Shown in pieces: positions 4,604 to 35,612 of a DNA stretch of 35,612 nucleotides. The notes below the pieces were generated by a model. It ran no database searches. It was given only the letters and a program-made list of their open reading frames with translations, and was not told where the DNA came from. A program made the translations under genes and the position numbers. Position 1 is the stretch's first letter, and the number at the start of each line of letters is the position of its first letter. Origin of the DNA: a virus; the IMG/VR virus record IMGVR_UViG_3300025086_000105, positions 1-35,612 of that record. One strand, given 5' to 3'.

Positions 4604-7473
4604 CTTCTTACCGTTGAAGAAACCGGGAGTTGTAGATTGCCTTCTTGCCGGGTATATCTTTCGAGTTCTCGAACAACGTCTTCACCGGATACGCCTACCG
4701 GCATATTGATTGTTACATTAGTTGTTCCGTTCATATTACCTAATCTGTCAAGGGGAATAACGGCTTCCGGTCCCTGCTCTCCAATTAATGAGAGCTGTGG
4801 CTGTGTAACAATTCCGCCTGTTGCCATTGGCGTAGCTCCGAGGAATGCGGCCACACTGGCTCCGAAGCCAAGAGTATCGAGTTGCCCGGCATCGTCAAAT
4901 AACATATTAATGAAACTTTGCGGAACTCCCCGAGTATCTACTCCTATTTTAATTAGAGCTTCAACTTTATTTAAGTCACGAACTTGTTGCTCTAAATTAT
5001 TAAGAACTTCCGTAAGCCTGCGGTATTCCGCTTCAGCCAGTTCTCCATTTTTGAAAGCATTATTAAGAACAGTTGATTGTTCGTCAAAGAATCCATTGAC
5101 TTCTTCAACCGGTAATCCAACGAGTTCTTTACTTACACCGGCGAGAGAATCGGCGTAACGTTGCGAAGCCCGGAGGAGTTCACCTTCCCTCTCTAGCTGT
5201 GTCTTTTCTTCATCGTTAAGCCCGGCAATAGCTTCGACAAGGGTATTCGCTGTTTCTTTTACTCGGAGGAGCGCTGTATCGAACCCAAAAGCGGTATCGA
5301 CTACATCATTGATCTGTTGAACTAACCTGTCAAATTCATCACGGACTTCGGCGAGTTCTTCCGCTGTCAGCTTACTTGTCGCTTTGAAAGTCCTGAACCG
5401 GGATTCCACTTCCTTCATGGGTTCCTCAACAGTTTCGACAGCCTGCCCATATCCAAGGAAGGAACCTATACCAGCTTGAACCTCCGGGTCTGTTAATTCA
5501 AGCGCTCTCGCTATACGCTTCTGCGCTTCAACGTATGTCATTGAATCCCCGGCGGCATCGAGAAGGTTGGCTCCGTATAATCCGAGTGACCGGGTTATCG
5601 CAATAATCCCTTCGTTACTCGTTAGATAGGCTTTTGCTTCGGACTCGAGAGCTTTCCGGTAGTCATCGAAAGCGTCCGCTGTTTCGTCAATAGCAATCAT
5701 TATCTCCCGGGCTTGCTTCGTTGTTAGCTCCCCGGCTGTGATTTGGTCAGCAAGCTCGTTTGTTACCCCGGCGATTGATTCATCAGCTTCTCGGAGCTTC
5801 TTAACGAAAGCGTCCTCCTGTCGAACAAGATGCTTTGTTTGATCTCCTAATTTATGGAACTCGTCTGTGCCATCCTCGACTAGCGGAATAAGGGAACTCA
5901 TTTCGATATCTAACTTCTGGAACTGCGGAACTACGTCACGCTTAATTAGTTCCGAAAGTAACGTTTGTGAACCTACGAAATCACCAATACTCGGATCCGC
6001 TTCCTCAGCGCTTCCCTTCAGCTCGGACAGCCGGGAAGCTAATTCTTTAACTCTCGCAGTCAAAGTAGCTGTAGGATCACCGGATTCTTCTATTTCTTTC
6101 CGGAGGATAGTCATTCGATCCCGAGCTTCCTGCGCTCGTTTACGGAACCCACGCAATATTAATCCGGTAGCTGTCGCCGCCACGCCCATAGCAATAAACG
6201 CCTTTGGGTGAGCTTTAACAACTTTTAACAATCCGCCAAGGACTCCTCGACCGCCTGCCCCGGTTAGCTTTCCTACGCCAAATGCGACTGGACCGGCCGC
6301 CGCGGCCATCGTTGCCATCGCTACAGCAGTTGATTTAATCGGACCCGGGAGATTACCAAACCCGGAAGCAAGAGTTTTAACGATTCCGCTTAAGTTCTCG
6401 AGGACCGGGACAACTATCGGAATAAGGACATTACCTAAGTCGATAAGCGCTTGCTTAATGTTAGCCATAGCCTGTGACAATTTAAATGCGGCGGTTTCCG
6501 AAGTAGCATCAAACGCCTGATCCAGAGCCCCGGTTGTATCGGTCATGTTCGCAAATATCTGTTCCGTAGTCGCTACGTTCGCACCCATTAGATCCATAAC
6601 ACCTGAAAGCGCTCGGATATTACCAAACACGGATGCCGCCGCCGCTTCATTCCCGGCGAACTCCTCAGATAATGTTTTAAGGGTTGCGAGAAGTCCCTCC
6701 TCCTTTATCTGCTTGCGTAAACCTTCGGAGGATAATCCCATCTTCTTCAGGGCTTTTTCCGCTTGAACGGAAGGACGAAGGAGCGATGATAGGATTCCCC
6801 GGACCTGCGTTGCCGCTTCCGCCGCATTCGTCCCGGTTCTCGATAGGGCCGCAAACGCCGCACCGACTTCCTCGAACTGGACACCCATAGCGGACGCTAT
6901 CGGTAGCACCCGGCCCATGCTCCCGGCGAGTTCCGATGCTTCCAGCTTTCCTTCTCGGACCGCCGCAACCATTACATCTGTCGCTTTCGTAGCGGATATG
7001 TTTGATTCACCGTAAGCGTTAAGCGCTGACGTAGCAAGGTCAGCTATCGTAGCGGTATCGCCTAAACCTACTGCCGCCGCTTTCGCCGCCGCTTCGAGGG
7101 TTTCTGTCGCCGCCGCTCCTCGTAAACCAGCGGACGTAATGAAGAACATAGCATCAGCGAGATCCTTCGGAGCTTGCGCTGTCGTCCCGGCGAGTCTCCG
7201 AACGTCCTGCTCGAATCCTTGTACTGTGTCAGCGGATAACCCAACGAGGGACTGAATCTTGGTCATACTCGCTTCAAAGTCCGCCGCCGCCTTGATTGAA
7301 AGTCCCCCAACTGCAATTAAAGGAGCGGTAACTCCCCGGGTGAGTTTCTTCCCGGTAGCGGTAGCTTTCTCGGAGAACTTATCCATCGAAGCACTAGCAT
7401 CCGCCATTGTCTTCTTCATTTTAGAAGCGTCAGCGGTTATTATCGCTTTCAGAACAGTGGTCATCGCCGCCAT
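4600..7473 (-). CDS. tail tape measure protein (TP901 type)
   Basis: A 957-residue, Ala-rich, mainly helical protein and the longest gene in the window. The N-terminal ~250 residues follow the TP901 tape measure pattern, including ADFEASMTKIQSLVGLSADT, LADAMFFITSAGLRG and TGTNAAEAATQVRGILSSLL. Hydrophobic segments near 345-440 may insert in the host membrane, and a GEQGPEAVIPL motif lies near the C terminus. With the usual ~0.15 nm per residue, the tail would be roughly 145 nm. The ATG overlaps the stop of the frameshifted tail chaperone (TAATG at 7475-7471), the classical arrangement. Confidence 0.95.
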   Translation of the reverse strand: MAAMTTVLKAIITADASKMKKTMADASASMDKFSEKATATGKKLTRGVTAPLIAVGGLSIKAAADFEASMTKIQSLVGLSADTVQGFEQDVRRLAGTTAQAPKDLADAMFFITSAGLRGAAATETLEAAAKAAAVGLGDTATIADLATSALNAYGESNISATKATDVMVAAVREGKLEASELAGSMGRVLPIASAMGVQFEEVGAAFAALSRTGTNAAEAATQVRGILSSLLRPSVQAEKALKKMGLSSEGLRKQIKEEGLLATLKTLSEEFAGNEAAAASVFGNIRALSGVMDLMGANVATTEQIFANMTDTTGALDQAFDATSETAAFKLSQAMANIKQALIDLGNVLIPIVVPVLENLSGIVKTLASGFGNLPGPIKSTAVAMATMAAAAGPVAFGVGKLTGAGGRGVLGGLLKVVKAHPKAFIAMGVAATATGLILRGFRKRAQEARDRMTILRKEIEESGDPTATLTARVKELASRLSELKGSAEEADPSIGDFVGSQTLLSELIKRDVVPQFQKLDIEMSSLIPLVEDGTDEFHKLGDQTKHLVRQEDAFVKKLREADESIAGVTNELADQITAGELTTKQAREIMIAIDETADAFDDYRKALESEAKAYLTSNEGIIAITRSLGLYGANLLDAAGDSMTYVEAQKRIARALELTDPEVQAGIGSFLGYGQAVETVEEPMKEVESRFRTFKATSKLTAEELAEVRDEFDRLVQQINDVVDTAFGFDTALLRVKETANTLVEAIAGLNDEEKTQLEREGELLRASQRYADSLAGVSKELVGLPVEEVNGFFDEQSTVLNNAFKNGELAEAEYRRLTEVLNNLEQQVRDLNKVEALIKIGVDTRGVPQSFINMLFDDAGQLDTLGFGASVAAFLGATPMATGGIVTQPQLSLIGEQGPEAVIPLDRLGNMNGTTNVTINMPVGVSGEDVVRELERYTRQEGNLQLPVSSTVRR

Positions 7474-8020
7474 TAGCGTTTACTCCTGTTCTTCTGTCTA
7501 GCCATTTCGTTTGCTCGGTTTCTTTCGTCTGCTTCTATTTGATAGAGCGCTCTCCATCCGGTCATTTCGGCTGATGACATTCTTTCGAGTAGCTCCCCAA
7601 CTGTCATAGACAGTTCCCGGGCGAGATGAAAGTAAAACCTTAACTCGGGATTTCCTCCTGCGAGTCCGAGGAATCTTTTCCCACTTCGTCCACCGAATCA
7701 GCGGCGAGCCCGGAGACTCGTAAACACTCGGTTGCTACCAGATCAATCGCTTGCGCTGATTTCTCCTCGAGTAGCCACTCAAGATCATCTTCGGTGAAAG
7801 CAGGCTCTCCGGTTTCCGGGTCAAAGCAACAGTGGAGGATAACATTCTTGTAAAGTAACTGCGCTGACTGGTCGCCTTCTACCGTCCAGCTTTGTTGCAT
7901 GTCGCTTCGTTGTTTAGCGGTCATGGAGCGTATACCTATTTTCACTCCCCACGCTTCAACGCCAAGTATTGTTTCCTCCCGGTCACTTGCTTCTCGTATT
8001 CGATCAGCCAATCTAGCCAT
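7473..8020 (-). CDS. tail assembly chaperone, long form made by -1 frameshift
   Basis: The zero frame runs from 8020 to the heptamer GGGAAAA (7682-7676); slipping one base back continues in a frame that is open to TAA at 7475-7473. The extension begins RFLGLAGG and contains LRFYFHLARELSMTVGELLE, which strongly resembles the T-type extension of lambda/HK97-like tail chaperones. The long form has about 182 residues. It should bind the tape measure protein and guide tube polymerisation. The heptamer is phased G GGA AAA, the form used in phage G/GT pairs. Confidence 0.9.
7640..8020 (-). CDS. tail assembly chaperone, short form
   Basis: The zero-frame product has 126 residues and ends DSQEEIPS. 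The mid-section (MTAKQRSDMQQSW, then LHCCFDPETGEPAF) matches the general pattern of short tail chaperones in actinophages. It lies between the tube-like protein and the tape measure, as expected. The short form should greatly exceed the long form in the cell. Confidence 0.85.
   Translation of the reverse strand: MARLADRIREASDREETILGVEAWGVKIGIRSMTAKQRSDMQQSWTVEGDQSAQLLYKNVILHCCFDPETGEPAFTEDDLEWLLEEKSAQAIDLVATECLRVSGLAADSVDEVGKDSSDSQEEIPS
7676..7682 (-). other. -1 frameshift slippery site of the tail chaperone
   Basis: GGGAAAA on the minus strand, read G GGA AAA in the zero frame, fits X XXY YYZ. The stop of the zero frame lies 34 bases downstream. An identical heptamer with the same phase occurs at 29616-29610 before the WhiB frame. 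Confidence 0.85.
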
Positions 8021-9541: not shown

Positions 9542-9745
9542 ATGGAAGCAACGAGTAAAGGAGTTAATCCAATGGAAGATATCAACTTTGATGACTTTCA
9601 GACCCGGAAGCGGAAGCGCCGCTCTCGTGGTTTAGCAAAGTTCTATATTAGGTGCTTGGACTGTCGAGCGCTTATCGGTGATTGCGTAATGGACAAGTAT
9701 CCGACTTGCCCATTCTGCGGCGGAGCTAATTGGAGCAATGATTAA
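9542..9745 (+). CDS. small zinc-ribbon protein, cassette gene
   Basis: 67 residues from the leaderless ATG at 9542, or 57 from an in-frame ATG at 9572 that has AAAGGAG upstream. The N terminus MEATSKG.NPM matches the MEAT..KG..SM of other cassettes. The body is basic (RKRKRRSRG) and then has CLDC (near residue 39) and CPFC (near residue 58), a zinc ribbon, so nucleic-acid binding is plausible. It is inserted between MuF and the tail operon on the opposite strand. The stop at 9745 lies just before the MuF stop, and no terminator hairpin was found. Confidence 0.75.
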   Translation: MEATSKGVNPMEDINFDDFQTRKRKRRSRGLAKFYIRCLDCRALIGDCVMDKYPTCPFCGGANWSND

Positions 9746-17395: not shown

Positions 17396-17431
17396 ATGGA
17401 AGCAACGAACAACCAAAGGAGAAATTCCATG
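17395..17431 (+). promoter_or_regulatory. leader hairpin with RBS in the loop
   Basis: CATGGAA (17395-17401) pairs perfectly with TTCCATG (17425-17431). The loop of 23 bases holds AAAGGAGA and the stem closes over the second ATG (17429). Equivalent structures occur at 25207, 31034 and, with changed bases, at 24021. Confidence 0.6.
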
Positions 17432-19345: not shown

Positions 19346-19557
19346 TGCCCTTCAACTCCATAATATGATCTCATGATCGGCCAACAGAAATCTCGGGAAC
19401 CGTATTGCTCAACATATTCCATATAAAGAGGGAAGTCGCCCGGGGCTACCGTGTCGTGATTCTCGCAGTAGACATCGGAACAGTAACCCTTCTCGATTCC
19501 TTCCGCAAGCCACCTATAATAATCTTTCTCAGTTGGTTTCTTTGTTGGTTTTCTCAT
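19342..19557 (-). CDS. small protein of unknown function
   Basis: A 71-residue protein starting MRKPTKKPTEKDYYRWLAEG, with CSDVYCENHD in the centre and a Tyr/Trp-rich C terminus. The C-x4-C-x2-H pattern might bind a metal. It overlaps the cytosine methylase stop by 29 bases and the PAPS reductase-like start by 4. I recall similar small proteins in other phages but no function. Confidence 0.65.
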   Translation of the reverse strand: MRKPTKKPTEKDYYRWLAEGIEKGYCSDVYCENHDTVAPGDFPLYMEYVEQYGSRDFCWPIMRSYYGVEGQ

Positions 19558-20797
19558 TGCTAGTTACCCTCTCCAATAGTATTGCATAAGCACGTTCGGC
19601 TTGCTGTGGGACTACGCCATTCCCTAGTAGTTCAAGCTTCCGGGTATATGACAAATCAACGCCAGTTACCCAGCGCGGCGGAACTCCCATCATCCATTCG
19701 ATAAACTCGGGAGAAACTTTAATTGATCCATTCTCGTGGTGATATGTTAAATCCTCTGGGACTCTCCGGTTCAGAACAGCTTCCCATCGTCCGATTGCTG
19801 GGCCGTATTCTTTGTATTTTCCCAATCTTCCCGAGCTATCTCCCACATTATTACCGCCGGGAGAACTCTCTTTTTCGCTTGTCTCTCGTAATCCACTTCT
19901 GGTGTGTTGTCCTTCGGATCCTTCGCCGTGGGAGTCGGAAGGAGCTTCGTGATAGATCCGTATTCCTGTATGTGGCGCTGGAGATCCTCGACCGATAGTT
20001 TGCTCCCATCGTCTAATTGCTGGTTGATATCGTTCAAAAGACGATCCAGAAAGACTAAATCGTTCAGGTTCACTCGTAGGAGTCCTGTTGATCCCGGCTT
20101 CCTCCCTGTCCCGGTAGCCATCCCCGATGTCAAACTCCTCCCCTGTCCGGTTGTCGGAGTCGGCAAAAGTTCTAGATGCGCCAAGACTCCCTGCACGTTT
20201 ACTGTCCCCTTCGCTCCACTCGGTCGTTTGCCATCTCCTGTCCTCCCGGAGTAGTCCGGCGATTTCCTTGCGTCCCGGTTCGTCATCGTTGGTAGCAACG
20301 CAAAACCATCGCTCTCGTTTATGTGGGGCTCCGACATCACTCGCTCGAATAACAAGCCACTCCCATCTGATGTAACCGTTTTCGGCCAACGCTTCACAGA
20401 CTCGTCCCATAGCTTCTCCGTTGTTAGCGGTAAGTATGGCTGAGACATTTTCAAGGAGGAGATATCTTGCTCCAGCAAGCCGGGCAACTTTGCAAACATC
20501 CGATATGAGCCATCTTTCATCTTTAATTCCTTTTCTTAAACCGCCTGAACTAACCGGCTGACAAGGAAAGCCTGCGGTGACGATATCGACTTTCTCCGGT
20601 TCAAATAGTTGTTGTGATATTTCTGTCAGATCTCCTAAGTTCGGTATGTTCCCGAATCTTTCCTTAATTACTTTGTCGCTCCCGGGGCAGATGTCAGAGA
20701 ACCAAACCATTTCGGTGTCGAGGATATTTCTTAATCCGAGTTCGATTCCTCCGTAACCGGCGCAAAGCGCTCCTACTGACAAACCCAATGTTGCCAT
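19529..20797 (-). CDS. DNA (cytosine-5) methyltransferase 2
   Basis: A 422-residue enzyme of the type common in actinophages. Motifs: LCAGYGGIELGL (I, near 10), AGFPCQPVSSGG (IV, catalytic Cys near 79), LLENVSAIL (VI), GAPHKRERWF (VIII), then a long variable recognition region with two RWE repeats (YQPAIRRWEQ and YGPAIGRWEA), WMMGVPPRWVTG and LLGNGVVPQQAERAY (IX-X). It appears intact. The variable region is overprinted by a long +1 frame (19771-20520). Its DNA target is unknown. Confidence 0.93.
   Translation of the reverse strand: MATLGLSVGALCAGYGGIELGLRNILDTEMVWFSDICPGSDKVIKERFGNIPNLGDLTEISQQLFEPEKVDIVTAGFPCQPVSSGGLRKGIKDERWLISDVCKVARLAGARYLLLENVSAILTANNGEAMGRVCEALAENGYIRWEWLVIRASDVGAPHKRERWFCVATNDDEPGRKEIAGLLREDRRWQTTEWSEGDSKRAGSLGASRTFADSDNRTGEEFDIGDGYRDREEAGINRTPTSEPERFSLSGSSFERYQPAIRRWEQTIGRGSPAPHTGIRIYHEAPSDSHGEGSEGQHTRSGLRETSEKESSPGGNNVGDSSGRLGKYKEYGPAIGRWEAVLNRRVPEDLTYHHENGSIKVSPEFIEWMMGVPPRWVTGVDLSYTRKLELLGNGVVPQQAERAYAILLERVTSNEKTNKETN
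19771..20520 (-). CDS. overprinted +1 frame inside methyltransferase 2
   Basis: A 249-residue open frame lying entirely inside the methyltransferase gene. It contains three ALLPT- or LLPTPT-type boxes (ALLPTMTNRD, ELLPTPTTGQ, KLLPTPTAKD) followed by LPAVIMWE. In other phage cytosine methylases I recall LLPTPT boxes as part of the methylase itself. Here they are in the other frame. It has no clear ribosome-binding site. It may be a remnant of a frame switch, part of an alternative product, or a constrained shadow frame. Confidence 0.3.
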   Translation of the reverse strand: MKDGSYRMFAKLPGLLEQDISSLKMSQPYLPLTTEKLWDESVKRWPKTVTSDGSGLLFERVMSEPHINESDGFALLPTMTNRDARKSPDYSGRTGDGKRPSGAKGTVNVQGVLAHLELLPTPTTGQGRSLTSGMATGTGRKPGSTGLLRVNLNDLVFLDRLLNDINQQLDDGSKLSVEDLQRHIQEYGSITKLLPTPTAKDPKDNTPEVDYERQAKKRVLPAVIMWEIAREDWENTKNTAQQSDDGKLF

Positions 20798-25206: not shown

Positions 25207-25446
25207 ATGGAAGCAATTAATAACAAAGGAGAGAATTCCATGAAAGTAACTAGTATTCGATACTTCAAGACCAACCGTGGTGTTGGTTACGAAGCAAAAA
25301 CCGCAAACGGAAGTATTCTTAATGACGGTGACGGTGGTCCAACCTATTTCATAGGAGATACGCCAGAAGCAAATAAGAAATATAGAGATCTCAGCGAATT
25401 TAAGTTGGAAGAATATATTGATATCTATGAAGGAGTAAATCAATAG
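25207..25446 (+). CDS. small protein of unknown function, cassette gene
   Basis: 79 residues from the leaderless ATG (MEAINNKGENSM), or 68 from the ATG at 25240 with AAAGGAGAG upstream. The body has beta-strand character (KVTSIRYFKTNRGVGYEAKT) with a Gly/Asp-rich turn and an acidic helix. No family is recognised. It has no CCSGG sites. Confidence 0.75.
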   Translation: MEAINNKGENSMKVTSIRYFKTNRGVGYEAKTANGSILNDGDGGPTYFIGDTPEANKKYRDLSEFKLEEYIDIYEGVNQ

Positions 25447-29046: not shown

Positions 29047-29075
29047 AAAGGAATTAGGACCGCCTAAGCGGTCCC
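29047..29075 (-). terminator. Rho-independent terminator
   Basis: On the minus strand GGACCGC TTAG GCGGTCC (29074-29057) is followed by TAATTCCTTTTT. It ends the endolysin-WhiB transcript downstream of the gene at 29148 and lies directly before the 29036 promoter. About 75 bases between the gene and this hairpin hold nothing recognisable. Confidence 0.8.
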
Positions 29076-29147
29076 AGTGTCCTGTCAAGGCTTAACGATC
29101 CCAAACAACCGGTTTCTTTTTACGAGGATTTCTACCTCAAACCTTTA

Positions 29148-29373: not shown

Positions 29374-29906
29374 TTATTGGGGGATTTCTTCAATAAATTT
29401 CTTCCGTTGAAATTCACGCAAACCTCCCCAAATCCCGAACTCTATATTCATAGATATCGAATAATCTAAACACTCAGACGTTACTGGGCAGATAGCGCAG
29501 ACTTCTCTCCCATCAAAAAGGTTTCGGTTAGTCTTTAACGGAAAGAACCATTCTGTCGGTAGCCCGGAACATTCCGCTCGGGTGAACCAATCATTATTTA
29601 CTTCTTCGCTTTTCCCGATGCCTTCTTTGCTGGCGCTTTCTTCGCAGGGGCTTTCTTCGCAGGAGCTTTCTTCTTCGCCGGGGCTTTACCTCGGAGCGCT
29701 TCCCAAGTAGCTTCATCCGCTATCCCGGTTGGTTCTAGTTTGTTCTCGGCCTGAAATTGTCCGAGCGCTCTCTGAGTTCCTATCGCAAAGCGTCCATCTA
29801 TTCTTATTCCAGCTCCCTTCGATACGAGTAACTCTTGGAGAACTCTTACCGCTCTAGCGTTCGAGTTATTCGTTACCGAAAGTGGGGGTGTTCCTATATC
29901 GCTCAT
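29374..29906 (-). CDS. peptidoglycan-binding/WhiB fusion by putative -1 frameshift
   Basis: The zero frame (99 codons from 29906) reaches GGGAAAA (29616-29610, phased G GGA AAA). A slip of one base leads into a frame open to TAA at 29376-29374, adding 78 residues. These are a WhiB domain: WFTRAECSGLPTEWFFPL, then VCAICPVTSECLDY (C-x2-C-x5-C) and FGIWGGLREFQRKK. The WhiB frame has no ATG, GTG or TTG before its first conserved residues; it opens after a stop at 29688-29686. WhiB proteins bind an Fe-S cluster and control transcription in Actinobacteria. Alternatives: a sequencing indel or a rare start codon. Confidence 0.55.
29598..29906 (-). CDS. peptidoglycan-binding protein with Lys/Ala tail
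   Basis: A 102-residue protein. Residues 15-72 form a PG_binding_1 domain (ARAVRVLQELLVSKGAGIRI, then GTQRALGQFQAENKLEPTG and ATWEALRG). The tail is a repeated APAKK sequence, like the histone-type tails of actinobacterial DNA-binding proteins. It has no signal peptide. It lies directly after the holin-like gene. It may attach to the wall at lysis, or the basic tail may bind DNA. Confidence 0.8.
   Translation of the reverse strand: MSDIGTPPLSVTNNSNARAVRVLQELLVSKGAGIRIDGRFAIGTQRALGQFQAENKLEPTGIADEATWEALRGKAPAKKKAPAKKAPAKKAPAKKASGKAKK
29610..29616 (-). other. candidate -1 slippery heptamer before the WhiB frame
   Basis: GGGAAAA, zero frame G GGA AAA, ten bases before the zero-frame stop codon (29600-29598). 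A purine-rich AAAGAAGG lies six bases upstream and could act as the upstream Shine-Dalgarno stimulator known from bacterial frameshift sites. A downstream hairpin is weak (CCCG with CGGG near 29583-29565). Confidence 0.55.
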
Positions 29907-29915
29907 TTTGTTTCC

Positions 29916-30194
29916 TTATATGTAAAGTTGTTCTTCTGCGTCATCTGGGATATCTTCCCGGGTCTTGAGAACCGAGCCTGTCGGATCTCCTATCGGCCCA
30001 CCGGCGCAGATAGCTGATTTAATAACAGCGAAAGCGGCAGGTAATCCACCGAGCGCCGCGAGTTTCAATGTGGATAATCCTCCCATATCCACACCTACTC
30101 CAGAGGCTGTCCACAGCCCGAGGAAGGTTTGAATATAAGTAGAGATTGCTCTCTCGAGAATATCCTTGACTTGTTCTTTGTTTAGATTAAACAT
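29916..30194 (-). CDS. holin (r1t-like)
   Basis: A 92-residue protein. ILERAISTYIQTFLGLWTAS (about residues 12-31) and LKLAALGGLPAAFAVIKSAI (about 43-62) form two hydrophobic helices with the ERA..TY.QTFL pattern of the r1t-type holin family. The tail is acidic. It lies 10 bases after the endolysin stop, as expected of a lysis pair, and has AAGGAGATCAC before the ATG. Confidence 0.8.
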   Translation of the reverse strand: MFNLNKEQVKDILERAISTYIQTFLGLWTASGVGVDMGGLSTLKLAALGGLPAAFAVIKSAICAGGPIGDPTGSVLKTREDIPDDAEEQLYI

Positions 30195-30203
30195 GTGATC
30201 TCC

Positions 30204-30935
30204 TTATCCGAATAATGCTTTCCACGTTGCTGGGCCGACTATCGAATCAACAACTAAACCGGAAGCTCGTTGAAAGTTACGAACAGCTAGGGCTGTCTTT
30301 CTCCCAAATATCCCATCCGGGTATCCCGGGTTGAATCCTTTGTTCGCTAATCCTTGTTGTAATACTTTCACGGCGGTGTTCTTCGATCCCCGGCGGAGCG
30401 GTTGCCGTTTAACGGTTTCGGCTAGTTGCGCAATAGCGGCTCCGACTCCCTTCATATCTACTTTCTCTTTTAGGGCTTTCTTCGTTTCTGTTGGCTTTCC
30501 TTCCATCGCCGGAGCTTGGAATATGCCGTTGCTGTTTCTCCACTGGAAGTGCCACCACTCGAATGGGTTAAGAACCGTTTGCTTGATTCCGTAATCTTTC
30601 GCTATCCGGGCGACATCGCCGGTTGTTAGTCCTCTCCCGGTAATGCGTAGATCAACTGCGTGTCCGTAGCCATCGGATTGCTGTTGATGGTAGGAGCCTT
30701 GCCACCCGGGAGCAAACTTCCGATCAGGGTTCGCCGCTAGATTGAAACCGGGCTTTCGAGCCACCCATCCGTCATAGAGTCGTTTCTGATCTGCGTAGCT
30801 CCGAACACCTGAAACAATCTTAACTTTCCCAGAGATTCGGGAATCCTGATTAAGTAACGCATCGAGTCGTGCTTTGAAAGTCGGATGTAATAAATCCGTG
30901 CGCACCCATTTCGATGTTGTCGGCAAGTTAGCCAT
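30204..30935 (-). CDS. endolysin, VanY-type peptidase with PG-binding domain
   Basis: About 243 residues. The M15 peptidase domain (about 1-150) has GSYHQQQSDGYGHAVDLRI (zinc ligands His and Asp) and NPFEWWHFQW (catalytic Glu, third His). After a Lys-rich linker comes PG_binding_1 (about 170-240) with VKVLQQGLANKGFNPGYPDG and ending ATWKALFG. The ATG at 30935 is chosen because it lies eight bases after the TAACAT -10 box and would be leaderless; 30941 is an alternative. An upstream extension to 31079 would overlap the opposing cassette. Confidence 0.92.
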   Translation of the reverse strand: MANLPTTSKWVRTDLLHPTFKARLDALLNQDSRISGKVKIVSGVRSYADQKRLYDGWVARKPGFNLAANPDRKFAPGWQGSYHQQQSDGYGHAVDLRITGRGLTTGDVARIAKDYGIKQTVLNPFEWWHFQWRNSNGIFQAPAMEGKPTETKKALKEKVDMKGVGAAIAQLAETVKRQPLRRGSKNTAVKVLQQGLANKGFNPGYPDGIFGRKTALAVRNFQRASGLVVDSIVGPATWKALFG

Positions 30936-31033: not shown

Positions 31034-31066
31034 ATGGAAGCAACAAACAAAGGAGAAGATTCCATG
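31033..31066 (+). promoter_or_regulatory. leader hairpin with RBS in the loop
   Basis: ATGGAA (31034-31039) pairs with TTCCAT (31060-31065), extended by a T-G pair. The loop contains AAAGGAGAAG. The second ATG (31064) is partly in the stem. Confidence 0.55.
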
Positions 31067-34903: not shown

Positions 34904-35584
34904 TTAGGCTCCCATCTCAGCGACATAAGCGCTGTATAGTTCTGGATTATCGGTTGCAACCCGGGAGATACCTTCAGATAGACTCTTGACGGTTCCCTCG
35001 GTTACCATAGCTTTTGCCATAGCTTCGATTTGTCCGTAAGCGTCATCATGTTCAGCATTACCTTCGCTACCTATTTCCTTCAAGATGCCAGCTTCGCCCA
35101 AAGCGATTGCAACGGCATCAAGTATTGATTCTACTTTTCCTGAAGTCTCGGCATCGAAGCTCCTGAGAGAACGGAGGACCGGGGCAAATTCTTCCGGGTC
35201 AAGTTGCGGTACGATTGCCCAGCGTTGAGCATCGTTTAGCGCTTTCTCAATCTCGGAGGATTCCCGGAGAGAGTCTACCTGCGCTCTAGCGTCAGCTAGT
35301 TCTTTACGAACGTCAGCCAATTCTTTCGCAACGGTATCGTCTGCTTTCTCCATTGTTTCTTCGATAACCTCAACCTCTGGTTCGGTGGTTTGTGTTTCCA
35401 CTGTTTTCTCCATTGGTTCGGTTGATTCTTCTACGGCTTCTATTAACGCTCTATCAAGATCACTGTCCGAGGACTTCATAACGGCCCATCCTTCGTGAAG
35501 ACTAGCCGGGTGGTCTACGCCGCTGATCTCCTTTAAGTGTAGGTTGGTCAGCTTCTTAACTTTACGCTTGAACATATTAGCCAT
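34904..35584 (-). CDS. scaffold / capsid assembly protein
   Basis: A 226-residue protein. The basic start (MANMFKRKVKKLTNLHLKEI) with SGVDHPASLHEGWAVMKS is seen in actinophage head assembly proteins. It is followed by a Glu/Thr-rich part and a long coiled coil (TVAKELADVRKELADARAQV), as in scaffolds. The C-terminal part is helical. It is upstream of the decoration and capsid genes. The first 36 codons are present again at the left end of the window. Confidence 0.8.
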   Translation of the reverse strand: MANMFKRKVKKLTNLHLKEISGVDHPASLHEGWAVMKSSDSDLDRALIEAVEESTEPMEKTVETQTTEPEVEVIEETMEKADDTVAKELADVRKELADARAQVDSLRESSEIEKALNDAQRWAIVPQLDPEEFAPVLRSLRSFDAETSGKVESILDAVAIALGEAGILKEIGSEGNAEHDDAYGQIEAMAKAMVTEGTVKSLSEGISRVATDNPELYSAYVAEMGA

Positions 35585-35612
35585 ATCGGAGATGATAACA
35601 GTTCTCCCCGGC
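35476..35612. repeat. terminal direct repeat, right copy
   Basis: The same 137 bases as 1-137 except T at 35602. Joining the ends gives a circle of about 35475 bp in which the scaffold gene is intact. Confidence 0.9.

Follow-up and report, generated by a model that had tools for sequence, protein, structure and literature searches.

Recoding by which a fixed proportion of a phage protein receives an extra domain is already known. In the G-T tail chaperones, exemplified by lambda G/GT, a fixed proportion of ribosomes reads on, close to the end of the gene, into an extra C-terminal domain, and the Ig-like domains found on coat or tail proteins of T3, A2 and Listeria phages are likewise accessory domains fused in a set ratio (PMC5009743). 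The Ig-like additions are virion domains, joined by -1, +1 or in-frame fusion as it happened (PMC5009743). WhiB (Wbl) proteins are familiar from phages as stand-alone genes, and whiB serves as an actinophage marker gene (PMC6802176). Stand-alone phage WhiBs, such as WhiBTM4 of mycobacteriophage TM4 and those of many other actinophages, have four cysteines and a G[IV]WGG turn, start at a codon of their own and probably act on host transcription. A Wbl domain is also part of a fusion protein in the known Wbl-sigma factor fusion, although this is an ordinary gene fusion for which recoding has not been described. The locus considered here shares features with each of these systems. As in G-T, a set share of ribosomes would add a C-terminal domain close to the end of a gene, but the genes, their place and the product differ, because it is a peptidoglycan-binding protein of a lysis cassette that would gain a transcription-factor domain. 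In contrast to the Ig-like cases, what is added here is a Wbl regulator, and every lineage keeps the -1 route. The Wbl domain itself has the four cysteines and turn of the stand-alone phage WhiBs, whereas it has no start codon, always accompanies a gene for a peptidoglycan-binding domain (PGBD) with a Lys/Ala-rich (K/A) tail, and has a short C-terminus. Among the open-access papers searched, none was found to describe frameshifting as the source of a Wbl or other transcription-factor domain, or of a lysis-cassette protein.

The whole stretch of DNA that was analysed (35,612 nucleotides, IMG/VR record IMGVR_UViG_3300025086_000105; the window) is a complete phage genome of ~35.5 kb, since it carries a 137-nt direct terminal repeat (1-137 and 35476-35612, 99% identical). 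No Rfam families or tRNAs were found in it. The lysis cassette lies on the minus strand in the order endolysin, holin, PGBD-K/A gene and, in the -1 frame, WhiB:

30204-30935, minus strand: endolysin (VanY-like peptidase plus PG_binding_1, from a domain search), first gene of the cassette; the start at 30935 is probable and was chosen by eye
29916-30194, minus strand: holin of the r1t type (phrog_443), directly upstream of the PGBD-K/A gene
29598-29906, minus strand: 0-frame gene of 102 amino acids, PG_binding_1 (PF01471, E 3.5e-13) plus Lys/Ala-rich tail ending ...KKASGKAKK*
29686-29688, minus strand: TAA that opens the -1 frame, read from the sequence
29610-29616, minus strand: slippery heptamer G GGA AAA, in phase, five codons before the 0-frame stop, read from the sequence
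29374-29610, minus strand: -1 frame part after the slip (linker, WhiB domain, TAA), read from the sequence
29377-29592, minus strand: WhiB (Wbl) domain with four Cys and GIWGG, without its own start codon (PF02467, E 6e-17)
29055-29076, minus strand: terminator-like hairpin plus T-run downstream of the cassette, from a pattern match only

The preliminary description of this DNA had placed a WhiB domain without a start codon in the -1 frame of the PGBD gene, with a G GGA AAA heptamer five codons ahead of the stop, and all of its coordinates, as well as the position and phase of the heptamer, were confirmed. The PGBD-K/A gene runs from the ATG at 29906 to the TAA at 29600-29598 and ends in the codons TCG GGA AAA GCG AAG AAG TAA. 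The -1 frame is open from 29685 to the TAA at 29376-29374, and contains no ATG, GTG or TTG ahead of residue 79, which is within the conserved domain. A slip at the heptamer gives the codons AGC GAA GAA GTA AAT AAT GAT TGG and a predicted fusion of 177 amino acids, join(29906..29610, 29610..29374). Both domain assignments are above their Pfam cut-offs (PG_binding_1, 50 bits against 23; Whib, 62.4 bits against a curated 23.6), and the WhiB domain matches solved WhiB structures with a best E of 1.4e-12. An AlphaFold model of the WhiB part reached a modest pLDDT of 70 and gave no useful fold match. A search of the window's own record with the WhiB frame found one place only. As follows from these domains, the predicted fusion couples a transcription-factor domain to a predicted peptidoglycan-binding protein.

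We consider it highly probable from the sequence that this PGBD-K/A-Wbl fusion is made by programmed -1 ribosomal frameshifting. One cistron of the lysis cassette would then give two proteins from two nested reading frames. Most ribosomes would terminate after 102 residues, yielding a PGBD protein with a Lys/Ala tail, while at G GGA AAA a minority would shift back by a single base and go on to translate the Wbl domain, so that the 177-residue fusion would be a set share of the product. By analogy with tail chaperones, the share of ribosomes that slip may be a few percent.

The tail assembly chaperone of the same genome provides a direct comparison, and the same heptamer in the same phase, as previously pointed out for this DNA, is indeed present there at 7682-7676:

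7640-8020, minus strand: tail assembly chaperone, 0 frame (phrog_344)
7676-7682, minus strand: heptamer G GGA AAA of the tail chaperone, read from the sequence; the -1 frame continues to 7473

The G-T pair of the window thus spans 7473-8020, ahead of the tape measure gene, and the -1 frame continues past the stop into the T part. Across the 51 genes of the window (10,924 codons) there are 15 in-phase XXXYYYZ heptamers, and only two of them give access to a -1 frame that extends past the 0-frame stop, by 74 codons in the PGBD-K/A gene and by 55 codons in the tail chaperone; both are GGGAAAA. GGGAAAA recurs in the tail chaperone of both the L011 and the L012 phage. That the PGBD-K/A gene is itself a G-T tail assembly chaperone was ruled out, as it sits in the lysis cassette and not before the tape measure gene.

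Two further features of the window were recorded. A leader element, ATGGAAGCAA...AAAGGAG, is present in five copies (9542-9563, 17396-17421, 25207-25231 and 31034-31055 on the plus strand, and 29336-29312 on the minus strand) upstream of short ORFs, where none is expected by chance. Most copies are preceded by a TGTGGTAATACYCGGGT-like sequence, the minus-strand copy lies just beyond the WhiB stop, and the element looks like a repeated promoter/leader or start-associated sequence. Separately, a 249-aa ORF (19771-20520, minus strand) is nested, in another frame of the same strand, in the gene for a C5 cytosine methylase (19529-20797, minus strand; PF00145, E 7.8e-38). It repeats LLPTPT and its middle part matches a phage methyltransferase family (phrog_1008, E 1.7e-7), making dual coding or a frame change in the variable region of the methylase possible.

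IMG/VR was searched with the WhiB frame, the PGBD gene and the endolysin, and 13 contigs were recovered besides the window. These relatives are metagenomic and mostly fragments, and with the window they make up ten lineages (window/L001, L006/L097, L011, which is the same contig as L098, L012, L013, L021, L094, L096, L175/L176 and L177/L178). All 14 contigs share the order holin, PGBD-K/A, WhiB in -1, with identities to the window of 53-70% for the PGBD and 39-53% for WhiB; the holin of L096 is more distant, and was read directly ahead of the PGBD gene. No usable WhiB start codon was found near the domain in any of the ten lineages. The open -1 frame extends further upstream in L013 and L175/L176, where the overlap with the PGBD-K/A gene contains ATG or TTG codons, but these are absent from the other lineages and lie some 40 or more codons ahead of the domain. 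Alignment of relatives, as suggested in the preliminary description, therefore places WhiB in -1 in ten of ten lineages with an in-phase slippery heptamer that is kept while its letters vary, and among them there is neither a WhiB with its own start, nor an in-frame fusion, nor a WhiB frame kept without the heptamer. The end of L011 and the start of L098 (IMGVR_UViG_3300030372_002192) overlap by ~100 nt within the PGBD-K/A gene, so that the frameshift junction is broken by the contig ends and a gene caller would find each part incomplete.

In sequence, the domain in the -1 frame fits the Wbl family. The four cysteines (C-x(n)-C-x2-C-x5-C) and the WGG of the turn are invariant across the ten lineages, and all have GIWGG or GVWGG. 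The WhiB frame evolves as a coding frame under purifying selection, judging from its substitutions: L006 and L097 differ by three synonymous and three nonsynonymous changes (L/F, L/I, I/L), L175 and L176 by three synonymous changes and one nonsynonymous change, and diverged pairs give pN/pS of 0.28-0.75 with synonymous sites near saturation. In each of the 13 relative contigs the frameshift-placed WhiB is the only one, whereas a relative that lacks the fusion, G016 (49 kb, which holds L022), has two separate WhiB genes, and this suggests that the frameshift product takes over the role of the ordinary phage WhiB. In cultured phages no WhiB match shown exceeds about 44% identity, and those that carry an annotation are genes of their own; the PGBD matches are few and mostly lysins. 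Five candidates for further cases (L185-L187, L102 and L106) were rejected, being ordinary WhiBs with starts. Three other phage WhiB frames (L133, L144 and L155) lack a start codon near the domain and may be other cases of odd starts, some perhaps being cut by contig ends.

An in-phase XXXYYYZ heptamer is found in all ten lineages. It is GGGAAAA in five (window, L012, L021, L175, L177), CCCAAAA in four (L006/L097, L011, L013, L094) and AAAAAAA in one (L096), and lies 4-8 codons before the 0-frame stop in nine of the ten, the exception being L013 at 25 codons. In E. coli, G_GGA_AAG and C_CCA_AAG are reported to be highly shift-prone (PMC5009743). The APAKK repeat pattern of the K/A tail is interrupted at the shift site in the nine GGG/CCC lineages (SGK, AGK, SPK, APK). 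Mapped onto a tree built from PGBD plus WhiB, the heptamer shows at least four changes of type, indicating that slipperiness is kept and the letters are not. L175-L178 were found with the PGBD alone, and all have WhiB in -1 together with GGGAAAA. Conversely, none of six related K/A-tailed genes without WhiB (L007, L008, L014, L018, L022, L074) has an in-phase heptamer in its last 60 codons. In two of these, L007 (3416-4090) and L074 (2194-2850), the PGBD-K/A gene is ahead of the holin gene and overlaps it in -1, but the holin of these phages starts at an ATG of its own and the K/A tail is without a heptamer. Any XXXYYYZ would arise by chance at 0.33-0.79 per Lys-rich tail and, since such tails often give these heptamers, that test alone is weak; the weight of the argument rests on the phase, the controls and the test for GGG/CCCAAAA specifically. 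Across the ten K/A tails, one per lineage, GGGAAAA or CCCAAAA occurs nine times in the slipping phase, and zero times and once in the other two. The joint chance of this is ~1e-8.6 by synonymous resampling to 1e-9.6 by codon shuffling, values that take the lineages as independent and are too small, because the lineages share ancestry. Programmed -1 shifts often, though not invariably, have a stimulator in the form of a downstream structure or an upstream Shine-Dalgarno-like element. No downstream RNA structure conserved across the lineages was found at the shift sites. Strong hairpins follow those of L012 and L096 only, and the structure in the window is weak (z -0.8). AAGAAGG is present ~4 nt upstream of the heptamer in several lineages, although this motif is common in Lys/Ala codons. 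Low-efficiency phage frameshifts without stimulators have been described (PMC5009743).

WhiB begins within a few codons of the 0-frame stop, where ribosomes are present, and some lineages have an ATA or ATT codon near that stop, so that WhiB could be translated separately from a non-AUG codon or by re-initiation. This is nevertheless very unlikely: no start-like codon common to the lineages was seen, an ATA or GTA in -1 at the stop is dictated by the stop together with the Lys codon before it, and the ATG that follows the stop in the window is in the wrong frame. A separate start would, moreover, need neither the constant -1 relation in ten lineages nor the heptamer that K/A tails without WhiB do not have. 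A transcriptional origin of the frame change, with RNA polymerase slipping at the A-run and the fusion being read from mRNAs with one base more or less, is more improbable still. There are A-runs at all sites and L096 has seven A, but in nine of the ten lineages the run is only four long, which is too short for the polymerase to slip, the usual length being about 8-9. The conserved G GGA or C CCA part would, in addition, be needed for two-tRNA slippage and not for slippage by the polymerase.

A homopolymer does adjoin the frame change, and the preliminary description had named a base-calling indel in the A-run as the main alternative to recoding. Both a second assembly and the relatives exclude this. 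L001 (3300025102_000648), an independent metagenome assembly, is 99.95% identical to the window over 7,675 bases with no gaps and, by reading, matches it from the PGBD start through the WhiB stop, which by itself leaves a chance base-calling slip very improbable. The same frame relation recurs in all ten lineages. A decaying pseudogene would not be expected to retain intact cysteines and GIWGG, nor purifying selection, and we regard base error or decay as the least probable account of all. Translational recoding, as originally proposed for this DNA, is by comparison supported by the pairing of a startless -1 WhiB with an in-phase heptamer in every lineage and by the lack of the heptamer in K/A tails without WhiB.

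What the fusion does is a separate question. The Wbl domains placed by frameshifting have only 10-23 residues after the GIWGG turn (median 12.5, against a median of 37 in other phage WhiBs, unweighted for kinship), with a median of four K+R in that segment against eight, and have a strongly basic arm on their N-side. A positively charged C-terminal segment is usual in the Wbl family but does not define it. Region 4 of the main sigma factor is the binding site of several Wbl proteins, which for contact with DNA mostly have just C-terminal positive charges or partners (PMC6282962); WhiB of TM4 has been reported to inhibit WhiB2 (reference cited in PMC3861242). Given the short Wbl C-terminus, the basic N-side arm and sigma binding by Wbl proteins, the fusion may regulate transcription late and at low dose in an actinobacterial host, a reading that we put at an even chance from its domains. 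The Fe-S Wbl domain would either bind the main sigma factor of the host or be a competitor of a host Wbl protein. DNA contact, for which the C-terminus is too short, would come from the basic K/A arm, and frameshifting would tie the dose of the fusion to lysis-protein synthesis. Such a regulator would activate late transcription or displace the host Wbl.

It is also conceivable, though rather less probable, that the frameshift is real but that the Wbl domain is no transcription factor and works in lysis or at the cell wall, where the peptidoglycan-binding domain would lead it; it might, for instance, time lysis as an Fe-S redox sensor. This competes only with the functional part of the frameshift explanation. 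In all lineages the gene follows the holin within the lysis cassette, and peptidoglycan-binding domains act at the wall, but an export signal is not evident by eye, the Wbl proteins examined so far have the main sigma factor, at its region 4, as their target (PMC6282962), and the arm, being basic, suits DNA.

The phages that carry the predicted frameshift probably have actinobacterial hosts, a reading that follows from the value of WhiB as a marker; a genome-contig search with the PGBD gave no host genome, its matches being unrelated proteins. Their samples appear to be marine, as read from the company kept by the contigs and not from sample records. A practical consequence is that gene callers dependent on start codons will miss or misplace WhiB in the phages of these ten lineages. 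More broadly, frameshifting seems to set the dose of a transcription-factor domain in the lysis cassette of diverged ocean phages, in which the shift site persists although its letters have been exchanged. Tentatively, this might represent a new type of phage regulator, a sigma-binding Fe-S domain present solely on a fixed proportion of the copies of a lysis-cassette protein. Late transcription, or the shut-down of the host, would then be coupled to how much lysis protein is made, and the PGBD might place the fusion at the cell wall or act as a switch.
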